Shown here: positions 39,472 to 51,149 of the stretch, piece after piece | Position numbering within the stretch: the stretch's first letter is position 1 | Layout: the number at the start of each line of letters is the position of its first letter | Assembly (NCBI GenBank): GCA_017621075.1 | Contig: JAGATV010000055.1 | Coordinates: 1-56,945, forward strand | DNA length: 56,945 bases | Direction: 5' to 3' | From: Lachnospiraceae bacterium | Lineage (GTDB): Bacteria; Bacillota; Clostridia; Lachnospirales; Lachnospiraceae | Notes under the pieces: model-generated | Told to the model about the DNA's origin: nothing | The model's database searches: none | The model's input: only the letters and a program-made list of their open reading frames with translations | Translations under genes and position numbers: made by a program

Positions 39472-40358
39472 TTAACTTTGAAAGGTATATGAGCTTCCTT
39501 TATTCAATTTACTGTCATACACACCGCCGTCAGCAATCTTATAAAGCGAATCAAAAGTCAATCCGCTTTTATACAAAACCGCCCCATGCTGACACTGATT
39601 TCTTCCGTCATGGGCGCAATATGGATCTTAGCGACTTCATCAAAAAATCTGTTGATCACTTCGGAAGCGGTTTCCTCGGATAGGATATCAACGAAATACG
39701 CAGCAAATTCATCCCCGCCCAGGCGCATGACGATATCGTTACTCCCTTTTACTTTTTGAAGGGCTTCTGCTATCGCAATCAGCACTTTATCGCCCACTAA
39801 ATGACCGTATTTGTCATTCACATGCTTAAATTTGTCAACATCAAACAAACAGAACAGACCTGCTTGATGTCCTGCCAGAAGCTCAGAGATCATCTTTTCC
39901 CCATGGCCACGATTGAAGATCCCGGTCATCAGGTCAGTTTGGGAGAGATATAAGAGATGATCTTCCTTTTTCTTCTCTTCATCGATACATTCCACGGCAT
40001 AAAGGACATAGCGAAGTTTATCATCCACGTTGTCATCTACCTTGATAAACCTGGCCCTGCACCAGCCATTTACCTTGCCTCTAAATACTGTGGAGATCAC
40101 CCTGTGACCTTGCATTCTCTCTTCAAGCGTAGCAAGGTCCGTAAATTCTGTGACCACTCCCAGATGCTCATCCACAGTGATATTATTCATGACATTGCCA
40201 AGTTTATCCTGACAACCCTCAAAATTTGCGGACCACATATCAATGTACTGATTGGTCTTTATCGGGAACAAGGTATCTTCCTGCAGATCGAAAATATGAA
40301 GAGATATATAGATCTCCGAGAGTGCAGCGAGCGTCAGTCTATCTATATCATTTTTCAT
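39472..40358 (-). pseudogene. GGDEF domain protein, frameshifted near its end
   Basis: A soluble diguanylate-cyclase-like protein: an N-terminal PAS-like sensor (about 1-135), then a GGDEF domain with DLMTGIFNRGHGEKM, FDVDKFKHVNDKYGH and RLGGDEF. No RxxD inhibitory site stands before GGDEF. After SVSMG the present frame reads six odd residues and stops at 39558. Adding one G to the GGGG run near 39583 restores the expected ending, AVLYKSGLTFDSLYKIADGG, and a stop at 39472. The start has GAAAGG and a near-consensus promoter. Only the last helix and strand of the domain are lost, so some folding might remain, but activity is doubtful. A sequencing slip in the G run is possible. Confidence 0.75.
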
Positions 40359-40550: not shown

Positions 40551-41300
40551 TTACCAGGTCTTTTCCAAAGTAATATGGTAATCCACTGCATATGGGTTAT
40601 CCTCGCGGGTCTTCAAATCCTCGTAGATGGCACGGCGTTCATCACTGCTGCCCTCCGACCAGTACTCGTAGCCGCGCAGATAGCTTTCTATCAATTCATC
40701 CCAGGAATCATACATAGGCTGCACCTGCTTTGCAATTTCCAGGGATTTATCCAATGCCTCCTCTAACGTGTAGTAATCAGCAATGTAATACCATCCCAAA
40801 AGATTGAATGCCCTGCAGTAATCCCAGCCATCGATGGCATGCCCGCCATACTCCTGATACATGATGTAAGTATTGGCAAAGAATTCCGCTCTCTCTTCCT
40901 CCAGGCCAAAAGCAAGCATAAAGAATGGAACATACTCCTCTTCATCCAGTTCACTCAGACCATACTCTGTCAAATGGTTCACCGTCTTCACAAAACCGGC
41001 CCGCTCGCCTTCCACCATGATCCATTCCAATCTCATATCGGCTGTTTCGCGGTCTGTTACCCCCCAATGATCAGCCAGAAGCTGCCTAACAGATTCCTTA
41101 TCTTCAGCGTTGGGGATCCTTCCGCCAAACTTATTATAATCCAGGCCGTTACATTCCGTCAGAATGGCATAAGTTGCATTGAACCAACGCACAGTATCCG
41201 ATGTCTTCTGCTTCCCTGCACCGCAGCCTCCCAGGACTGCCGTACAAACCATGCTGACTGCCAAACTCAATATGACTGCGATCTTCTTTGCTCTTTTCAT
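40551..41300 (-). CDS. DUF1266 family lipoprotein
   Basis: Exported lipoprotein of 249 residues. The N-terminus MKRAKKIAVILSLAVSMVC and then AVLGGC form a lipoprotein signal with the lipid-bearing Cys. The rest fits DUF1266: GWDYCRAFNLLGWYYIADYY, then TLEEALDKSLEIAKQVQPMY, DSWDELIESYLRGYEYW. The function of DUF1266 is unknown, and most members are cytosolic, so a lipoprotein form is notable. The ATG at 41300 is 14 bases after the upstream gene. It is the second gene of a two-gene unit under a promoter covered by dyads. Confidence 0.82.
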   Translation of the reverse strand: MKRAKKIAVILSLAVSMVCTAVLGGCGAGKQKTSDTVRWFNATYAILTECNGLDYNKFGGRIPNAEDKESVRQLLADHWGVTDRETADMRLEWIMVEGERAGFVKTVNHLTEYGLSELDEEEYVPFFMLAFGLEEERAEFFANTYIMYQEYGGHAIDGWDYCRAFNLLGWYYIADYYTLEEALDKSLEIAKQVQPMYDSWDELIESYLRGYEYWSEGSSDERRAIYEDLKTREDNPYAVDYHITLEKTW

Positions 41301-41314
41301 GTGTATTTCCTTCA

Positions 41315-41692
41315 CTATTGTAATTTATTGTTAAGGAACTCCATCCAATCATTTCTTTTCAATACAGAGCAGACCTTTTTGGCAGACTTTCCGTTTTCAT
41401 CCGCATAGATCACTTTGATGCCGGTAGGGATGATGGGGATAATTCCTCCTGCATTACACTTTTTGATCTCTGTGATCTTATCATAAGGAACACCCCAATT
41501 GTTGTTGCCTAACATTCCGCCTACAAATATCATTGTCTTTTCTGTAAAAAAGAAATTTCCTCTTACCTGAGAGAATCCAAACTCCCAATAATCCCCCGCA
41601 GTGTGCTCCACAAGAGTCTCACCCTCGGGCAGATATCCCAGATTCTTCAGTAGTGTGATCCATTCATTCTTTTGTTTCTCTGATAATTTCAT
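41315..41692 (-). CDS. Small PH-like domain protein
   Basis: A 125-residue cytosolic protein. After a short helix (EKQKNEWITLLKNLGYLPEG) it has a run of beta strands, GNFFFTEKTMIFVGGMLGNN, then WGVPYDKITEIKKC and GIKVIYADENGKSA, and a C-terminal helix RNDWMEFLNNKL. This order fits bacterial PH-like or GRAM-like domains; the match is by pattern only. AAGGAG precedes the ATG. It leads a two-gene unit with the DUF1266 lipoprotein. Confidence 0.7.
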   Translation of the reverse strand: MKLSEKQKNEWITLLKNLGYLPEGETLVEHTAGDYWEFGFSQVRGNFFFTEKTMIFVGGMLGNNNWGVPYDKITEIKKCNAGGIIPIIPTGIKVIYADENGKSAKKVCSVLKRNDWMEFLNNKLQ

Positions 41693-41709: not shown

Positions 41710-41753
41710 GGTCTATTTACTTTAGACCCCTTGTAAGTCTATATGATATAGAC
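41710..41753. promoter_or_regulatory. Two GTCTA/TAGAC dyads, likely repressor operators
   Basis: GGTCTA-N7-TAGACC at 41710-41728 and GTCTATATGATATAGAC (7-base arms, 3-base centre) at 41737-41753. The second covers the -10 box of the promoter at 41736-41764 and the first lies at the expected transcript start. They share half-sites, so one dimeric repressor probably binds both. The neighbouring BlaI-type regulator is the obvious candidate, which is inference. Confidence 0.7.
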
Positions 41754-41764
41754 CTATTTGTCAA
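41736..41764 (-). promoter_or_regulatory. Promoter of the PH-like/DUF1266 unit
   Basis: Minus strand: TTGACA (41759-41764), 17 bases, TAGACT (41736-41741). The spacer and -10 are covered by the GTCTA/TAGAC dyad. Confidence 0.7.
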
Positions 41765-41776
41765 GAAGATAATGGA

Positions 41777-43837
41777 TCACTGTATAGGGTGATGATAGGT
41801 TTTTAAGCCCAATGCAAATACATCCTCGACACTTTCTCCTGTTTCCGGCAGGATGCCGTCACTCACAAATACCCAGCCCGCCATACCGTCATCACAGATA
41901 AGTTCCACCCAAAAACCCGAAAACTCCTTATCCGCAATCTGCCACTGCCGTTTTTGCGTGATACGGCAGGCACTCACCACCTGGGGCTGTATCACAAACG
42001 TATGGAAGCTCTCCGGTTCTTCATGCACCGTCAACTCTTTTTGTATCTCATACGAAACAGGCACTATTTCCGCATACTCTTCTTCCTGTTTCACCAGTCT
42101 GCCCTCTGCATCGATATCCCATGTTGTCTGCACACTTTCTCCCATAATGATCTTTTGTGGCACATATGATAAGATGGTATCCCCCAAGACTTCTGTCCGT
42201 GACAGATCAGCCTCTATTTCCCCCCGGGATAAAATAGCATCCTTTTCATATTGATAAAAAGAAGTAACGGTATTTGTCATTCCATCCGTCTGCCCGTCTC
42301 TGTATTCCAATGCCAGACAAATCTTCCTGCCATCAAAGGATATCGCACATATTTCGTTTGCGACTGCCTTTGCCCGGCCCTGCACCTTATCCTTGCCGAT
42401 CACCAAAGCAAACTCTGTCTCCCCATTTTCGTTCCTATCTTCCAAGGAAAAATCCAGCCTGATTTCTTCAGCTTTTCCATCCCCATCCATATCAAGGCAG
42501 GCACTCGCTCCCGCATCCGTCCACTGTGTCACATTGTACACAGTCCCCGGATGTTCCAGGATTTCCTGTGCGTCGGCAGTCTCTCTTTTTCTTATGGATA
42601 GTTTTCTGCTTTCCGCAGAATCGTCCGTGTAGCTGATACTCAATATACCGTTGTAAATATTGAAGGATTTTATCCTTTTTCCGTTTTCGCAGCTAAATAT
42701 CTCTTCCGTTTCGTTGGTCTCCACATCCAAGCGCTTTATGCAGATCCCGCCCTGTGCCAGAAAGAACAGATTTTCCTCAATCATGAAAAAATCGGATATC
42801 TCAGAATATTTTTCCTTATAGATCCGCTTTTCGCCGTTCTCGTCTATGCGATATATACCATTGCCGCGCATCTCATATACAATGCCGGTTTTTTGGTCGA
42901 TCAATCCGCCGGATTCACTGGTTGCTTCCTCGCTCTGACGGATCGGCACCATATTGATCTCAAACCTCTCCGATACAAATATCCCCCAGACCATAAAGCA
43001 CATAGTGAGAACGGATGCCAGAATAGAAACCTTTTTGGTAGCATGTTCCGCTTTGATACAGCGACGGATACGATATTTGATATTGGCCTCTCCAAAAGCA
43101 AGAGCGTGATCCCTTTCCCCGCTGACAAAAAATCCGGAAGCCGCCTTCAAAATGGTATCCGCATATTGCTTCTTTTGCCCTGTTCCTATTTTCTGCAGCA
43201 CAAGCTCATCACAGGAAGCCTCCTGGTCCCGAACAAAAAAATAAAAGGCACACCACATCAGAGGATTATACCAATTGACTGCACATAACAAAAAAGCCAT
43301 CCCTTTTGCCACATAATCGCCTCTTTGGATATGTGTCCTCTCATGGGACAAAATCAGGTTTTCCGTGCTTTCGTCCAAGCCCTCGGGCAGATAAATCCCT
43401 GGGGGAAAGTAGCCGAAAGTAAATGCACTTGATATCACAGGGCAACGATATATCTTCACCTTCATCCACCGGGCTCTGGCAGAGCCGCCATCCGGCCTGT
43501 CCGCCTCCACCGCAGTATGCTTTAATCTGTTTGCCAGCCGGATATAACTTACTCCGTTTGCAAGCAACAGGATGCACAGCACTGCCAGATATATGATCAC
43601 GATCACCTTCCAGTTCACGTCAATATAGCCCAGTTTCCCCGCTATTTTCACCTTGGGTATGACCGCAAGTCTGCCTGTGGGCGCCACGGTACAGAGCAGA
43701 TGAAAGGCCACAAGTGCCCACAGCGCATAAGTTACACTTTTCGGCAACTTCTTTAATATTATCCTCAATGCCAATAAATACAAAACTGCAAACGAGCCGG
43801 AAAGACTTATTTGCAGCAGTTTATAAAAGATACTCAT
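41777..43837 (-). CDS. M56 (BlaR1-type) receptor peptidase with a large non-PBP sensor
   Basis: A 686-residue membrane protein from the ATG at 43837. The N-terminal 290 residues follow the BlaR1/MecR1 plan: membrane helices, then the zinc peptidase motif LSHERTH (HExxH at 165-169), a later CDELVL, and another helix near 272-290. In BlaR1 the extracellular part is a penicillin-binding domain. Here it is about 390 residues of beta-rich sequence: propeller-like repeats (YEMRGNGIYRIDENGEKRIY), an FG-GAP-like DMDGDGKAEEIRLDF, and an SH3-like C-terminus (FWVELICDDGMAGWVFVSDG). There is no SxxK or KTG motif, so beta-lactams are unlikely ligands. It follows a BlaI gene by 93 bases and has its own promoter. 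The ribosome site is weak, so the start is uncertain. Confidence 0.85.
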   Translation of the reverse strand: MSIFYKLLQISLSGSFAVLYLLALRIILKKLPKSVTYALWALVAFHLLCTVAPTGRLAVIPKVKIAGKLGYIDVNWKVIVIIYLAVLCILLLANGVSYIRLANRLKHTAVEADRPDGGSARARWMKVKIYRCPVISSAFTFGYFPPGIYLPEGLDESTENLILSHERTHIQRGDYVAKGMAFLLCAVNWYNPLMWCAFYFFVRDQEASCDELVLQKIGTGQKKQYADTILKAASGFFVSGERDHALAFGEANIKYRIRRCIKAEHATKKVSILASVLTMCFMVWGIFVSERFEINMVPIRQSEEATSESGGLIDQKTGIVYEMRGNGIYRIDENGEKRIYKEKYSEISDFFMIEENLFFLAQGGICIKRLDVETNETEEIFSCENGKRIKSFNIYNGILSISYTDDSAESRKLSIRKRETADAQEILEHPGTVYNVTQWTDAGASACLDMDGDGKAEEIRLDFSLEDRNENGETEFALVIGKDKVQGRAKAVANEICAISFDGRKICLALEYRDGQTDGMTNTVTSFYQYEKDAILSRGEIEADLSRTEVLGDTILSYVPQKIIMGESVQTTWDIDAEGRLVKQEEEYAEIVPVSYEIQKELTVHEEPESFHTFVIQPQVVSACRITQKRQWQIADKEFSGFWVELICDDGMAGWVFVSDGILPETGESVEDVFALGLKTYHHPIQ

Positions 43838-43893
43838 GATTTCTGATATTTCCACACCGCCCCGCCACTTTGGTCTACATCTTGCCAACCTAA

Positions 43894-43922
43894 AGTTTAT
43901 AAAATACGGGCCCTATTGTCAA
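43894..43922 (-). promoter_or_regulatory. Promoter of the M56 receptor gene
   Basis: Minus strand: TTGACA (43917-43922), 17 bases, TAAACT (43894-43899). The -35 box lies just before the blaI stop region. A single half-site GGTCTA at 43872-43877, like those in the DUF1266 promoter, lies downstream. Confidence 0.6.
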
Positions 43923-43930
43923 GGCATATT

Positions 43931-44299
43931 TTAACATTCATCGATCAATCGTCTGATCTCTTCTTTCTCCTTTTCGGACAATTTCACTCCGCTCCCGCAA
44001 AATGCAGTAAGGAACATCGGAAGCGACCCGGCGAAATGTTCATCCACATAGTCTCTTCCCCGGGCTCCGTAATAGTCCTCTTTCTTCAGCGTCGACGTGA
44101 CGATCGCATTTTCATTTTTTATGACTTCCTTCCCACAAAGGTTCTTGAGCATCGTGTATGTAGTGGATTTTTTCCACTCAAACGTTTTCTCGCATTCCTT
44201 CACAAGAGCGGTGGAATTGATAGGCTCCAGTTTCCAGATCAGTTCCATAAATTTCATTTCGGTCTTGGTAAGTATACTTACCTTGCATTTCTTTTTCAT
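43931..44299 (-). CDS. BlaI/MecI/CopY family repressor
   Basis: A 122-residue winged-helix repressor. The N-terminal domain shows LTKTEMKFMELIWKLEPINS, the recognition region EWKKSTTYTMLKNLCGKEVI and the wing; the C-terminal half is the dimerisation part with LTAFCGSGVKLSEKEKEEI. In this family the M56 receptor leads to cleavage of the repressor and release of target genes, and the M56 gene lies directly downstream. It starts 16 bases after malQ, so it is also on the malQ transcript. Likely targets are the GTCTA/TAGAC dyads about 2.5 kb away, which is inference. Confidence 0.92.
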   Translation of the reverse strand: MKKKCKVSILTKTEMKFMELIWKLEPINSTALVKECEKTFEWKKSTTYTMLKNLCGKEVIKNENAIVTSTLKKEDYYGARGRDYVDEHFAGSLPMFLTAFCGSGVKLSEKEKEEIRRLIDEC

Positions 44300-44315: not shown

Positions 44316-45797
44316 TTATCTTCCGTACAGTTTCGTCATGGTACGGATCTTTTTTGCCAGTTCTTTGGTCAGTGCGTCCTTTTCCATCCGCCACCGCCAG
44401 TTGTTTCCCAGGGTGGAAGGAGTGTTGATCCTGGCGCTGCTTCCAAGCTCCAGATAATCCTGAAGGGGTATGACAGCCGTGTCCGCCGCACTGGAAAGCG
44501 CCCCACGGATGCAGGCCCAAAGCAGATCCTTACGGTTCTGCACATTCAGATATTGCATGAGGAAACGCAGCCGGCTGCCCTTTAAAGTGCGTATCCAGCC
44601 CGCTGTGGTGTCATTGTCATGGGTGCCTGTATAGACTACACAGTTTTGGGTATAGTTATGGGGCAGATAAACGTTTTCCCGATCGCCGTCAAAGGCAAAC
44701 TGCAGGATCTTCATCCCCGGATATCCTGTTTTCTTCACCAGCTTCCGCACACTGTCCGTCAAAAATCCCAAATCTTCCGCAATCACCTGCCGCTTGCCCA
44801 GCTTCTTTTTCATGGCCTCAAAAAGCTCATAGCCGGGGCCTTTTTCCCAATGACCGTTCTCCGCCGTAGGATCACCGTAGGGAACCGACCAGTACTCATC
44901 AAAGCCGCGGAAATGATCAATCCGGACAATATCATACAGTTCATAGCAGTGTGCGATCCTGTCGATCCACCACCGGTATCCTGTCTTTTTATGGTGCTTC
45001 CAGCGATACAGGGGATTGCCCCAGAGCTGTCCCGTCTCGGAAAAAGCATCCGGAGGGCATCCTGCCACGGCAGTGGGATGACCGGTTGCATCCAACTGGA
45101 ACAGTTCCGGATGCGCCCAGGTATCTGCACTGTCCAAAGCCACATAAATAGGAATATCTCCCACGATCTGTATACCCTTTTTGTTGGCATAAGCTTTCAG
45201 TGCTTTCCACTGTGTGGCAAAGAGATACTGTTGAAACCGATAGCATGCGATCTCCTCTGCCAAAAGCTCCTCATATCGCGCCATGGCTTTCTTTTTCCGA
45301 AGCCTGATATCCTCCTCCCACTCCAGGAAGCATCGGCCCCCAAAATGGTCCTTGACCGCCATATATAATGCGTAATCATCCAGCCAGCTACGGTTCTCTT
45401 CCAAAAAAGCCACATAATCCGGCTGCTCAAAAAGTCCCTTCTCCCCGGCGCGCTTCCATGCCCTTTGCAGCACCCGGAATCTGGAAAGATAGATCTTCTC
45501 ATAGTCGATATCACCGGGATCGTTCCCAAAATCACAGGCATCACACTCTTCCACGGTCAGATACCCCTTGCCGATCAGAAGCTCCAGATCGATATAATAG
45601 GGATTGCCCGCAAAGGTGGAAAAGGACTGATAAGGTGAATCTCCGTACCCGGTAGGCCCCAGGGGAAGGATCTGCCAGAGGGTCTGACCCGCCTTTTTCA
45701 AAAAGTCCACAAATCTGTAACTCTCTTTTCCAAACGTACCGATCCCATAAGGGGAGGGGATACTCGAAACCGGCATCAGGATTCCTGCTCTTCTCAT
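44316..45797 (-). CDS. malQ: 4-alpha-glucanotransferase
   Basis: GH77 amylomaltase that transfers maltooligosaccharide segments between glucans. The 493 residues are family length. Motifs are GTFGKESYRFVDFL near the start, IGDIPIYVALDSADTW, the nucleophile region IVRIDHFRGFDEYW, the acid/base IAEDLGFLT, and VVYTGTHDNDTTAGW. GAGG precedes the ATG. It follows the membrane GGDEF gene by 9 bases and precedes blaI by 16 bases, so these form one unit. It could act on glycogen made by GlgA encoded about 30 kb away. Confidence 0.96.
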   Translation of the reverse strand: MRRAGILMPVSSIPSPYGIGTFGKESYRFVDFLKKAGQTLWQILPLGPTGYGDSPYQSFSTFAGNPYYIDLELLIGKGYLTVEECDACDFGNDPGDIDYEKIYLSRFRVLQRAWKRAGEKGLFEQPDYVAFLEENRSWLDDYALYMAVKDHFGGRCFLEWEEDIRLRKKKAMARYEELLAEEIACYRFQQYLFATQWKALKAYANKKGIQIVGDIPIYVALDSADTWAHPELFQLDATGHPTAVAGCPPDAFSETGQLWGNPLYRWKHHKKTGYRWWIDRIAHCYELYDIVRIDHFRGFDEYWSVPYGDPTAENGHWEKGPGYELFEAMKKKLGKRQVIAEDLGFLTDSVRKLVKKTGYPGMKILQFAFDGDRENVYLPHNYTQNCVVYTGTHDNDTTAGWIRTLKGSRLRFLMQYLNVQNRKDLLWACIRGALSSAADTAVIPLQDYLELGSSARINTPSTLGNNWRWRMEKDALTKELAKKIRTMTKLYGR

Positions 45798-45806
45798 TCT
45801 ATTACC

Positions 45807-47432
45807 TCACTTCTGCTTCATGGCAAATTTCTCTTGATACATCATCTTATCCGCACGCCTGGAAGTGTCACGGATATCGTAATCAAGCCTCTTGTCATAC
45901 ACCACATACCCACAGGCGATCTCCATGAACACATCCTCGCTCTGTCTGTTAAAATCATCCACCATTTCCTTTAGGCCGGACACAAGCTTCTTACATAACT
46001 CTATGCTGCCGTTGGGGATCAACACGCAGAATTCATCGCCGCCCATGCGGTAACATTTTCCCTTCTCTCCAAAAATATGCTCTATGATCTGTGCACTTTC
46101 CCGAATATAAAGATCTCCCTTTTCATGTCCGAGGGTATCGTTACACTTCTTTAAATCGTTCAGATCCAGTGCCACTACGATACAGTGTTCCGGTCGGAAT
46201 TCTTCGCTGTTCACATAGACGTCATAAGCAGTGCGGTTGTATAATCCGGTAAGCTGGTCATGATAGGCCATGCGCTCAAAGGCCTTGGCATGCATCCCCA
46301 CGTTCATCAACTGCCGGATGCCTTTCATGGAAAAGTATCCCTGCACGAAAATATACACCATAAAACAGGTCATGCCGATCAACGTGTTCTGCTGCCAGCC
46401 AAGCAGATAGTACAGCAGCACATCCAGGGCAAATCCGCAGGCACATACCGTCAGGCACAGGGCATTGCGCTTTAGCTTGGGATTCCAGCCCACTTCATGC
46501 ACTTCCCGGATTACCATGACCAGGGCAAGGAACAGATTTGCCGCCAGACTTGCATGGACCAGAACCAGTGTCTCACTCATATCGGTGATCCCGGTAAACT
46601 GCAGGATCAGCACCACCGCCGCGGTGATCAGGCTGATGAAACAACCCACATACCACACAATGCTCTCCCGGGATCGGAACAGTTCTTTTAAAAACAGCAG
46701 AAGCGGCACACAGACCAGCATCAGCGCAAGATAAGGTGCGATGGACAGGGAGAGATATCCCGGGAACATCAGCTTGACTGCCGCAGTATCCATCAGTTTC
46801 CAAATCCCCAGCTGCACCGCAAAAAGCCCTAAGAGCCATATCGATATGTCGATTTCCGCATTTCTGTAATTATACAGGGTAAATACAATAAAGATAAGCC
46901 CTGCCAAAACAGCAAGGACTCCCAATATCATATCCGGCACATCCGCCCGGATACGGTCCTTGACAATATCAAACTTGGTTCCAAAATAGAAATCCGGCGC
47001 CCTGTCCACGGCTTTTTGGTACACCGGCACGATCACCACCCTCAGTGTCCTTCCGTTGTCGGATTCCTCCAGCATGATACTGTTCCACACACAGCCCGGC
47101 GTCCGCCCGAAGGGATTCTTGCTGTCCGCCGCCATCCGGTAAATTGGTTCCTCATCCAAGAACACCTCTATATTCTGGTGATAACTGTAAAAGATCAGCT
47201 CCCTGTAAGCCTCGCTGACCCCCCGGATCTCCCAGACATACTCCTGCACAATTCCCTGGGGCGCAGAGGCATCCGGGACAGTGACCAGTTCCTTTTGCGG
47301 CAGGAGCTCATACCCCGACTTTGCCGCCTTTTGGGTCACCTCGATGTCAAAATCAGCAGTAATATATACAAAAAGAATCGCCAACAGCAAAAAGAAAAAC
47401 AGATATGTCCTCTCTACAAACTTCTTCATCAT
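45807..47432 (-). CDS. Membrane-bound diguanylate cyclase (GGDEF)
   Basis: A 541-residue membrane protein. TM1 lies at about 10-28, an extracellular beta-rich domain of about 150 residues follows, then seven or so membrane helices (about 190-380), and a C-terminal GGDEF domain with YHDQLTGLYNRTAYD, VALDLNDLKKCNDTLGHEKG and RMGGDEFCVLIP. No RxxD inhibitory site stands before GGDEF. The N-terminal layout resembles that of the hybrid kinase at 25921-28965. The ATG at 47432 has AGAAGGG upstream; earlier in-frame codons add a stretch without a ribosome site. It is co-transcribed with malQ. Confidence 0.9.
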   Translation of the reverse strand: MMKKFVERTYLFFFLLLAILFVYITADFDIEVTQKAAKSGYELLPQKELVTVPDASAPQGIVQEYVWEIRGVSEAYRELIFYSYHQNIEVFLDEEPIYRMAADSKNPFGRTPGCVWNSIMLEESDNGRTLRVVIVPVYQKAVDRAPDFYFGTKFDIVKDRIRADVPDMILGVLAVLAGLIFIVFTLYNYRNAEIDISIWLLGLFAVQLGIWKLMDTAAVKLMFPGYLSLSIAPYLALMLVCVPLLLFLKELFRSRESIVWYVGCFISLITAAVVLILQFTGITDMSETLVLVHASLAANLFLALVMVIREVHEVGWNPKLKRNALCLTVCACGFALDVLLYYLLGWQQNTLIGMTCFMVYIFVQGYFSMKGIRQLMNVGMHAKAFERMAYHDQLTGLYNRTAYDVYVNSEEFRPEHCIVVALDLNDLKKCNDTLGHEKGDLYIRESAQIIEHIFGEKGKCYRMGGDEFCVLIPNGSIELCKKLVSGLKEMVDDFNRQSEDVFMEIACGYVVYDKRLDYDIRDTSRRADKMMYQEKFAMKQK

Positions 47433-47547
47433 TCTTGCCGATTCCCTTCTTTTTATTCCATACACAGCCGTCCCTGGCAAAAAAATAAGCACAGACACTT
47501 ACGGCCTGCGCTTATTATAGCATTTATGGGAATCTGCTTCAACAATT

Positions 47548-48823: not shown

Positions 48824-48894
48824 GCAGATATGGTTCATCGGTAGAACGCTAGCTTCCCAAGCTGGAAAGGCGGGTTCGACTCCCGTTATCTGCT
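48824..48894 (+). tRNA. tRNA-Gly (anticodon CCC)
   Basis: Cloverleaf: acceptor GCAGATA/TATCTGC with discriminator T, anticodon loop TTCCCAA (CCC), T arm with GGTTCGACTCC. CCA is not encoded. Confidence 0.95.
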
Positions 48895-48911
48895 TTGATC
48901 CGAAAGGATAT

Positions 48912-48985
48912 GGAAGCATAGCTCAGCTGGGATGAGCGTCCGCCTCACACGCGGGAGGCCACGGGTTCGAGCCCCGTTGCTTCCA
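48912..48985 (+). tRNA. tRNA-Val (anticodon CAC)
   Basis: Cloverleaf: acceptor GGAAGCA/TGCTTCC with discriminator A, anticodon loop CTCACAC (CAC), T arm with GGTTCGAGCC. It follows tRNA-Gly by 17 bases on the same transcript. Confidence 0.95.
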
Positions 48986-48991
48986 TTTTTT

Positions 48992-49025
48992 TGCGCAGAT
49001 TTTCCTATAAGATCTGCGCATTTTT
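48992..49025 (+). terminator. Terminator after tRNA-Val
   Basis: Perfect 9-base stem TGCGCAGAT/ATCTGCGCA with an 11-base loop, then TTTTT. Confidence 0.85.
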
Positions 49026-49030
49026 AATCA

Positions 49031-49111
49031 TGCGGATGAGGGGACTTGAACCCCTACATCATAGATACTAGAACCTAAATCTAGCGCGTCTGCCAATTCC
49101 GCCACATCCGC
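49031..49111 (-). tRNA. tRNA-Leu (anticodon UAG)
   Basis: Minus strand: acceptor GCGGATG/CATCCGC with discriminator A, anticodon stem CTAGA/TCTAG around loop TTTAGGT (TAG), a longer variable arm as expected for class II, and T loop GGTTCAAGTCC. It lies just downstream of the MATE gene on the same strand. Confidence 0.93.
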
Positions 49112-49150
49112 AGTTATCTGTATGATTATACCTTTCCGGGCCCGGATTTG

Positions 49151-50548
49151 TCACCCCCGGAGCCTCTCTTCCCCCGCTTCCCCTTCTTCCTTCTCCCCGA
49201 TATGCCGGATGATCTTTTGGTAAATGCGCACCAGGAAATAAGTACTCATCCCCACGCTGGCAAGCTCCGCAATGGGAAAGGACCACCAGATCAGATCCAC
49301 ATCGCCGCTTAAGGACAAAAGCTTTGCCACAGGCAAAAGTACACACAGCTGTCTGGCGATGGACACAAGCATGCTGTAGACACCGTTTCCCAACGCCTGG
49401 AACACACTTCCCACCACGATGCAATATCCCGCAAACACAAAGCTTAAGCTGATGATCCGAAGGGCCACAGCTCCCATGGCAAGGATTTCCGGTGTGGCAT
49501 GGAACAGCCCAAGAAGCTGTGCCGGCATCACCTGCATCAGGACGAGACCACAAAGCATGATGCCTACGGCATAGAGGATGCTGCTCTTCATGGTCCTGAT
49601 GACACGGTCACGCCTGCCTGCCCCATAATTGTAGGCAATGATGGGCACCATGCCGTTATTGAGTCCGAATATGGGCATGAAGACAAAACTCTGCAGTTTA
49701 AAGTAAACGCCGAATACCGTCTGGGCGGCACCGAAGGAGGCCAGGATGAGATTCATGCCATATGTCATGACGGAACCGATGGCCTGCACCACAATGGAAG
49801 GGGCGCCTACCTTGTAAATATGCAGGATCAATTCCCCGTCAGGCCTGAATCCCTTCATGGAAAGATGGATCTCCCGATTGTATTTCAGGTTAAAGAAGAT
49901 CGCCAGGGCTGCAGCCACCATCTGGCCTGCCACAGTGGCTGCAGCGGCTCCCGCCACACCCATCCGGGGCATACCGAACCAGCCGAAGATCAGGATGGGG
50001 TCCAGGATCAGATTGATGATGGCTCCGGTCCCCTGGGTGATCATGGTAAAAAAAGTCTTTCCGGTAGACTGCAGTATCCTCTCGAAGGTGGTCTGCAAAA
50101 AGATGCCGATGCCGGCAATGCAGCAGATCCCAAGATACGTCACGCCGTATTCCCTGACTTCCGGGATCCGGGTCTGGCTGGCAAAAAAGGGCCTGCTGAC
50201 CAGGATGCCCACCACCGCAAATACCAGATAGCTCATCACCGCCAGAAAGATACCGTTCCTTGCAATGATATTGGCTTTCTCAAATTCTTTCTCCCCCAAT
50301 GTCTTGGACAGGAAAGCATTGATACCCACCGCCGTGCCTACCGCCACTGCGATCATCAGGCTCTGGATGGGAAATGCCAGGGAAACCGCACGCAGGGCAT
50401 GTTCATTGATCCGGGACACGAAGATACTGTCCACGATATTGTAAAGAGCCTGCACCAGCATGGAGATCATCATGGGCAGGGACATACTGAGCAGAAGCCG
50501 ATTGACGGGCATGACACCCATCTTATTCTCTTTTGTTGTTTCCCGCAT
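49151..50548 (-). CDS. MATE family efflux transporter
   Basis: A 465-residue membrane protein with 12 hydrophobic segments. Family features include LLLSMSLPMMISMLVQALYN, then IVDSIFVSRI in TM1, the LDPILIFGWFGMPRMGVAGA region that ends the first half, and the second-half repeat FGLNNGMVPIIAYNYGAGR. It is expected to export cationic compounds or other small molecules using Na+ or H+. The ATG at 50548 follows AAAGGA; a longer open frame upstream runs into tRNA-Lys and is not coding. It lies downstream of a four-tRNA group on the same strand. Confidence 0.93.
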   Translation of the reverse strand: MRETTKENKMGVMPVNRLLLSMSLPMMISMLVQALYNIVDSIFVSRINEHALRAVSLAFPIQSLMIAVAVGTAVGINAFLSKTLGEKEFEKANIIARNGIFLAVMSYLVFAVVGILVSRPFFASQTRIPEVREYGVTYLGICCIAGIGIFLQTTFERILQSTGKTFFTMITQGTGAIINLILDPILIFGWFGMPRMGVAGAAAATVAGQMVAAALAIFFNLKYNREIHLSMKGFRPDGELILHIYKVGAPSIVVQAIGSVMTYGMNLILASFGAAQTVFGVYFKLQSFVFMPIFGLNNGMVPIIAYNYGAGRRDRVIRTMKSSILYAVGIMLCGLVLMQVMPAQLLGLFHATPEILAMGAVALRIISLSFVFAGYCIVVGSVFQALGNGVYSMLVSIARQLCVLLPVAKLLSLSGDVDLIWWSFPIAELASVGMSTYFLVRIYQKIIRHIGEKEEGEAGEERLRG

Positions 50549-50643
50549 TGCATATTCCTTTCTTATATTCCCTGTTTTATGTTGCTTTTCAACAGGTGTA
50601 CCGTTCCAAACAAAAACATCACTTTTACAAGTGATGTTCTTCA

Positions 50644-50716
50644 TGAGACATCGGGGATTCGAACCCCGGACAACTTGATTAAAAGTCAAGTGCTCTACCG
50701 ACTGAGCTAATATCCC
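50644..50716 (-). tRNA. tRNA-Lys (anticodon UUU)
   Basis: Minus strand: acceptor GGGATAT/ATGTCTC with discriminator A, anticodon loop CTTTTAA (TTT), T loop GGTTCGAATCC. Confidence 0.95.
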
Positions 50717-50732
50717 ATCCGTATAAAAGAAA

Positions 50733-50804
50733 CAGGGCTAGCTGGATTCGAACCAGCGAATGCAGCAGTCAAAGTGCTGTGCCTTACCGCTTGGCGATAG
50801 CCCT
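50733..50804 (-). tRNA. tRNA-Gln (anticodon UUG)
   Basis: Minus strand: acceptor AGGGCTA/TAGCCCT with discriminator G, anticodon loop CTTTGAC (TTG), T loop GGTTCGAATCC. Confidence 0.95.
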
Positions 50805-50851
50805 AAAGTATGACACCAAGCGTGTCATCAAGACACATCTTACAGCATGAG

Positions 50852-50926
50852 GGTGGATAATGGGATTCGAACCCATGGCCTCCAGAGCCACAATCTGGCG
50901 CGCTAACCAGCTGCGCTATACCCACC
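50852..50926 (-). tRNA. tRNA-His (anticodon GUG)
   Basis: Minus strand: anticodon loop TTGTGGC (GTG). The extra 5' G typical of tRNA-His is present and pairs with the discriminator C. T loop GGTTCGAATCC. Confidence 0.95.
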
Positions 50927-50963
50927 ATATACAGAAACAGAAGTCCTTATGAGCCTGTCCCAA

Positions 50964-51037
<74 letters not shown>

Positions 51038-51149
51038 ATACCGTTTGGTGTTTCCACACAAACCGACGAAGCATATTGTAACTTATTATTCGCAGTTTGT
51101 CAACACTTTTACCTATTTATTTTTGCATTTTTTGCATCAACAGATACCC

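Follow-up and report, generated by a model that had tools for sequence, protein, structure and literature searches.

The stretch of DNA analysed here (the window: 56,945 nucleotides of contig JAGATV010000055.1 from a Lachnospiraceae bacterium) carries on its minus strand a gene that we take to be malQ from its translation (end at 44316), followed by a blaI-type repressor gene, a gene for an M56 zinc-peptidase receptor, a gene of 125 residues and a gene for a DUF1266 lipoprotein. BlaR1/BlaI pairs are known mainly as a drug-resistance switch. Our analysis indicates that this locus probably forms a one-step circuit of the BlaI/BlaR1 type, in which a receptor with a non-penicillin-binding sensor controls the genes for the small PH-like protein and the lipoprotein. 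The sequence directly shows the proteins with their catalytic motifs, and an operator that is linked to blaI-M56 throughout the genus; the components are as follows.

41736-41764, minus strand: operator-promoter TTGACA, 5 bp, GTCTA, 7 bp, TAGACT, the right half-site being the -10 box (composite pattern search and consensus scan)
41737-41753, unstranded: dyad 1, GTCTATATGATATAGAC, overlapping the spacer and the -10 box
41711-41727, unstranded: dyad 2, GTCTATTTACTTTAGAC, immediately downstream of the promoter and 26 bp from dyad 1
41315-41692, minus strand: gene P0003 for a small PH/GRAM-like protein of 125 amino acids, an open reading frame with AGGAGA ahead of it and the first gene behind the operator
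40551-41300, minus strand: gene P0004 for a DUF1266 lipoprotein of 249 amino acids, the second gene of the unit (PF06889, E 2.5e-27; lipobox LGGC read from the sequence)
41777-43837, minus strand: gene P0001 for the M56/BlaR1-type receptor (PF05569, E 6.5e-39; BlaR1 structures 8exp/8exs, E about 3e-5)
41780-42913, minus strand: sensor domain, residues 310-687 of P0001 (about 380 residues), modelled as almost all-beta with propeller blades first, a DMDGDG motif and an SH3-like C-terminus
43931-44299, minus strand: gene P0002 for the blaI-type repressor, 122 amino acids (PF03965, E 1.5e-18; matches to BlaI/MecI entries of the Protein Data Bank, PDB)

A preliminary description of this DNA had placed two GTCTA/TAGAC dyads over the promoter of the PH-like/DUF1266 unit, and both are perfect GTCTA-N7-TAGAC sequences that keep all ten defining bases. 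The 2.36-Mb assembly contains this pattern at two places only, both ahead of the 125-residue gene, and shuffled windows contained 0.01 dyads on average, with the pair arising in none of 300 shuffles. The promoter-like element itself, TTGACA-17-TAGACT, matches the consensus at 10 of 12 positions and is one of three sites tied for second place in the region, in a scan that is weak as a whole (13 sites found versus 8.2 ± 2.9). The two sites have the layout of a tandem-dyad operator, namely two inverted GTCTA(T) dyads, with 5-7 bp between half-sites, located in a promoter. This operator is already known and not new, because the available text of PMC8457756 reports the same one for BlaI_0696 of Clostridium thermocellum, where DNA affinity purification sequencing and electrophoretic mobility shift assays (EMSA) identified inverted GTCTAT sequences 5 nt apart, with two dyads per target. 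Its three targets are the BlaI operon plus separate genes, and the authors read the regulon, in that same text, as a beta-lactam response. Clo1313_2238 is a target protein there. The comparison with the window covers the tandem operator and the presence of targets besides blaI; unlike the window, where blaI has no operator, the BlaI operon described in that source bears one too.

Across the genus, 72 of 138 genomes contain the composite pattern TTGACA-N5-GTYTA-N7-TARACT, with 103 matches in all compared with a single match for the reversed control, and its only match in the bacterium's own genome is the window site. Among 106 distinct occurrences examined, blaI follows within 900 bp in 96, and a second dyad, exact or with one mismatch, is present in 101. 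At the level of the order (392 genomes, including some from the genus), there were 60 matches in 47 genomes against one for the control; outside the genus, 18 of 23 sites examined lead to blaI, and GTTTA-only sites (5 of the 23) look like chance. Many blaI promoters have a common layout, with the right half of dyad 1 serving as the -10 box. When 29 loci from 99 genomes were collected by M56 homology alone (L010-L038), an exact dyad was present in 12 of them and a tandem pair in 11. Pairs and single dyads differ: the 49 places listed elsewhere than in the window comprise 31 pairs, of which 29 lie at blaI, and 18 single dyads, of which 3 do, and a single dyad was not counted as evidence because 15 of the 18 lie away from blaI. 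The two pairs scored as not at blaI are one at murT (L114) and one with the blaI start about 0.6 kb further on (L148). Because composite sites lead to blaI across genus and order, the dyads are, on this comparative evidence, the usual BlaI operator-promoter of the Lachnospirales genus studied. Judged by sequence, the window operator is unusual in its position, which is ahead of the PH-like and DUF1266 genes and not ahead of blaI.

The window repressor belongs to the BlaI/MecI family (P0002 scores 67.6 bits against PF03965, curated cut-off 22.6), and its recognition helix is WKKSTTYTMLKNL. Recognizable helices are present at 26 of the 29 loci collected by M56 homology; 21 are of the TTYT/TAYT type, and the five outside this comparison are four TTSFT and one TTYN. 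Within the TTYT/TAYT type, repressors with lysine at the class position are accompanied by an exact GTCTA dyad in 11 of 12 cases and those without it in 1 of 9 (Fisher p 3.7e-4, for a lysine class that was chosen after seeing a wider helix table and by a test that ignores kinship). The window helix is of the lysine class and fits GTCTA. In the wider table, which includes loci picked by the GTCTA pattern, LK helices go with GTCTA, LR (arginine) helices mostly with GTTTA and TTSFT helices with TACTACA. This pairing looks like a code that insulates paralogues from one another. In a tree of 70 BlaIs, the window protein groups with five others (L024, L105, L146, L030 and L155), all with GTCTA dyads, at a best identity of 58%. 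Two further BlaIs were found in the same genome, with different helices and with adjacent operators of the GTTTAAC and TACTAC types. A BlaI-type gene on contig C56 of this genome (L077, 4306-4692) has the palindrome TACTACTGTTGTAGTA upstream and no M56 match in the 10-kb stretch around it. These comparisons strongly support the proposal that the dyads belong with the BlaI and the receptor, through the operators ahead of blaI-M56 in genus and order, the helix class and the relatives of the sensor that lie behind the same dyads.

The receptor consists of a membrane zinc-peptidase part (about residues 1-290) and an extracellular sensor (about 300-687), with hydrophobic segments at 11-29, 35-61, 79-97 and 271-289. 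As first described, it keeps the BlaR1-type peptidase: it is a member of Peptidase M56 (134.3 bits against PF05569, cut-off 31) and contains HERTH at 166-170 (HExxH) and E207ASCD211 (ExxxD), the counterparts of the BlaR1 signatures H201EXXH and E242XXXD given in the available part of PMC9834060. BlaR1 structure chains align significantly to residues 124-287 only, which is the peptidase part, and the BlaR1 equivalog model NF000326 gives 66.9 bits versus a cut-off of 400. Pfam and NCBIfam scans of the sensor found no transpeptidase or beta-lactamase family and no penicillin-binding signature, and the sensor profile has no sequence relative in the PDB at E up to 1. The structure prediction suggested earlier returned a nearly all-beta model, in which the N-terminal part is modelled as propeller-like and the C-terminus as SH3-like; no penicillin-binding fold is among the structural matches listed, which leaves such a fold possible. 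The earlier view that propeller-, FG-GAP- and SH3-like sequence replaces the penicillin-binding sensor agrees with the missing signature and with the propeller blades of the model; in the window, FG-GAP and SH3 have no Pfam match. For FG-GAP/VCBS, a DMDGDG-like motif is conserved in relatives; SH3_3 matches weakly in 5 of 16 aligned sequences (best E 0.0071), and weak SH3_3/SH3_4 matches occur among the sensor relatives.

This sensor family is recurrent, being present in 24 of the 138 genus genomes. Exact GTCTA dyads precede blaI at 7 of 16 named sensor loci (6 as pairs), and GTTTA-type dyads are found at 4, of which 3 are before blaI; 6 of these 16 are the same records as loci in the other locus sets. 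The sensors of other blaI-M56 operons of the family (for example L197, L198, L202, L203 and L206) are 23-31% identical to that of the window in the alignment. These operons resemble the window in sensor family and in their exact GTCTA dyad pairs, and differ from it in that the operator is ahead of blaI and that a PH or DUF1266 gene is absent from the stretch examined. Some frames, 556 to 759 residues long, carry the sensor but match no Pfam M56 profile (L067, L069, L156 and L160), and one of these has a GTTTA-type dyad directly upstream (L210, same record as L156).

The two genes behind the window operator differ in how widely their relatives are distributed. P0004 is a member of DUF1266 (96.6 bits against PF06889, cut-off 27), a family present in 47 of 138 genus genomes, and shares 61% identity with another copy in its own genome and 63% with one in G099; the lipoproteins of contig C32 of its own genome, G099 and G009 are 53-63% identical and share the lipobox. 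The copies of C32, G099 and G157 differ from that of the window in having no exact GTCTA dyads. The second copy in the same genome (L298, 1432-3153, contig C32) is located behind a membrane gene resembling LiaF-TM/LiaI-LiaF. Among 30 DUF1266 loci listed (L167-L196, 1.5 kb each side), none has PH or BlaI and one adjoins M56 (L176 of G157; PF05569, E 9.3e-47), which may be a chance event. The corresponding stretch of G157 (L369, 4003-7650) carries on one strand a 485-residue DUF1266 lipoprotein, an M56 gene without the window-type sensor and, about 0.6 kb on, a blaI-type gene; it is like the window in adjoining M56 and blaI, and no GTCTA dyads were found in it. P0003 has no Pfam match and hence does not reach the PH/GRAM cut-off, and the same holds for L040; its homologue L300 matches GRAM below the cut-off (E 0.0011), and L041 has only unrelated weak matches. 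Homologues of P0003 are rare (3 of 99 and 4 of 392 genomes, its own counted in both) and were found in G039, G043, G099, G321 and weakly G276; the stretches surrounding the PH genes of the first four (L072, L073, L299 and L300) contain no dyad at one mismatch or fewer. In G039 (L072, 2976-9669), the PH-like gene follows a lipoprotein-like frame that has no Pfam family; a blaI-M56 pair of the TACTACA class is encoded on the same strand, 3.8 kb upstream of the PH-like gene.

Two further elements lie between the receptor and blaI genes.

43894-43922, minus strand: site resembling a promoter ahead of the receptor gene, TTGACA, 17 bp, TAAACT, with the spacing of the operator-promoter and a degenerate left half-site (consensus scan)
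43873-43877, unstranded: lone GTCTA/TAGAC half-site within the leader of the receptor gene, where the best 19-mer scores -12

The half-site noted earlier in the receptor promoter is present, but by the dyad-matrix test it is not part of an operator: the best scores there are -12 and -12.5, the half-sites are degenerate, and a third operator was rejected on this basis. blaI starts 16 bases past the end of malQ, and no GTCTA dyad or operator was found in the stretch upstream of it. The window blaI is probably not tightly self-regulated, the full operator being on the output unit, and its transcription probably depends on read-through from malQ or an unseen promoter.

In the available text of PMC7593790, the BlaR1/BlaI scheme is one in which the receptor cleaves the repressor upon an outside signal. 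The circuit that we infer for the window follows this scheme from binding and repression through cleavage to the role of the products. At rest, BlaI dimers on both dyads would cover the -10 box and the start region, keeping the PH-like and DUF1266 genes off. A signal, most likely the state of the cell wall or envelope, would be received at the extracellular propeller/SH3-like sensor, upon which the cytoplasmic zinc peptidase would cut BlaI and the two genes would be switched on. The locus shares with the staphylococcal/Bacillus BlaR1-BlaI and MecR1-MecI systems a winged-helix repressor and a receptor that joins a membrane M56 zinc peptidase (motifs HExxH and ExxxD) to an extracellular sensor at its C-terminus; unlike in those systems, no penicillin-binding sensor was found, the operator is GTCTA-N7-TAGAC and the output is a lipoprotein unit and not a beta-lactamase. 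In the open-access literature searched, we found no account of M56 receptors with a window-type sensor, of PH-like and DUF1266 genes as a BlaI target, of an operator code for the BlaIs of Lachnospiraceae or of what DUF1266 does. The novelty claimed earlier goes too far: the operator is published (PMC8457756), and the sensor belongs to a family that recurs in the genus as described above.

Further operator-promoters were found ahead of genes other than blaI. murT and gatD are the genes of lipid II amidation. BlaI-type tandem-dyad operator-promoters precede murT-gatD operons in G013 (L114, 4955-5022) and G019 (L274, 533-600), both of which also carry the window-type sensor family. In G013, one and the same 17-mer makes up the second murT dyad and the operator of the sensor-family blaI. 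As a general target, murT-gatD was rejected: of the 10 genomes that encode a close GatD, 2 have the operator and 7 lack it, including G058, which has the sensor family; G156 could not be judged, as its contig ends near the place, and G153, with a weaker GatD match, was left out. Separate BlaI targets are likewise predicted for two solute-binding lipoprotein genes of G151 (L266, 571; L269, 521) and an F420-ligase-like gene of G022 (L277, 534, reverse strand). The other composite sites away from blaI comprise three at which an M56 gene is first in the operon and one likely chance site; a guaB-like site in G154 looks like chance. Apart from blaI, the targets predicted from the operator pattern point to envelope functions, subject to the limit given above for murT-gatD.

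Several observations weigh against the proposed circuit. The co-occurrence of PH-like and DUF1266 genes with BlaI/M56 and the dyads, earlier proposed as a check in relatives, was seen in no other genome searched, and the same is true of the two-gene unit behind a GTCTA operator. The window blaI has no operator of its own, whereas most relatives autoregulate. The BlaIs of L027 and L016 break the helix-operator rule. The window BlaI is placed in the tree on a long branch and without strong support (87/92), and it was the GTCTA pattern itself that had yielded L105, L146 and L155, three of the five BlaIs grouped with it. In the available text of PMC8457756, the EMSA specificity of BlaI_0696 is modest. 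The site at which the receptor peptidase cleaves BlaI is Asn-Phe, according to the part of PMC9834060 consulted; in our alignment, the P0002 residue at the position of Asn101 of Staphylococcus aureus BlaI is Ala, with the next Phe retained. Finally, at 87% completeness the assembly may lack a further BlaI.

Four other explanations can be considered. That the dyads are chance palindromes is hardly credible: their short length is all that speaks for it, against the outcome of the shuffles and the 103 genus-wide composite matches versus one in the control. It is also quite improbable that they serve another BlaI encoded elsewhere in the genome. The incompleteness of the assembly and the two additional BlaIs would allow this, but each of these paralogues has a different helix and, next to its gene, an operator that differs in sequence, and GTCTA dyads are found near the window blaI only. 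A change of gene order could instead have left a former blaI operator-promoter before the PH/DUF1266 unit, the present blaI-receptor pair being weakly or no longer linked to it. Such capture and decay would fit a blaI-promoter geometry with other genes behind it, a blaI 16 bases after malQ that lacks an operator, a receptor promoter resembling a degenerate copy and the long branch of the window BlaI; we nevertheless consider it unlikely, as the dyads keep their ten defining bases, the receptor frame is open with its catalytic motifs kept, and BlaI retains the class-specific helix.

The remaining explanation concerns the signal. The receptor may respond to beta-lactams indirectly, through a sensor that reads peptidoglycan damage or fragments, which would make the locus a wall-damage or drug-response system; we regard this as a possible but minority interpretation. 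Weak SH3_3/SH3_4 matches in sensor relatives speak for it, as do the murT-gatD operators of the two sensor-bearing genomes, with the 17-mer shared in G013, and the available text of PMC3305447 describes beta-lactam resistance triggered by a peptidoglycan fragment in Bacillus licheniformis. Set against this are the lack of a penicillin-binding domain by Pfam or BlaR1 equivalog score and the scarcity of the murT-gatD operator (present in 2 and missing in 7 of the 10 genomes encoding a close GatD, with sensor-bearing G058 among the 7). The earlier statement that the system is unrelated to beta-lactams consequently goes too far: by sequence the sensor is non-penicillin-binding, but an indirect wall-damage signal from beta-lactams is still a reading of the data.

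Returning to the circuit proposed for the window, a wider arrangement can be suggested tentatively, in which the genus holds many BlaI-M56 circuits insulated from one another, each combining a sensor of its own with a particular operator word and the helix that matches it, comparable to the insulation of two-component systems. Receptors with propeller/SH3 sensors would sense the state of peptidoglycan or lipid II, and the outputs would be envelope genes such as murT-gatD or, here, the DUF1266 lipoprotein. The BlaR1/BlaI chassis appears in this light as a general outside-to-inside signalling kit of gut Lachnospirales with exchangeable sensors. The operator-promoter can be found by a simple pattern, which yields testable regulon predictions (the lipoprotein unit of the window, murT-gatD and the two solute-binding lipoproteins) and offers a route to asking which signals other than beta-lactams M56 receptors sense; DUF1266 would gain a testable regulation.

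In the wider surroundings of the locus, proteins with a GGDEF motif, read from their translations, flank it on both sides (39558-40358 and 45807-47498), and seven tRNA genes lie in two clusters at 48824-51038.

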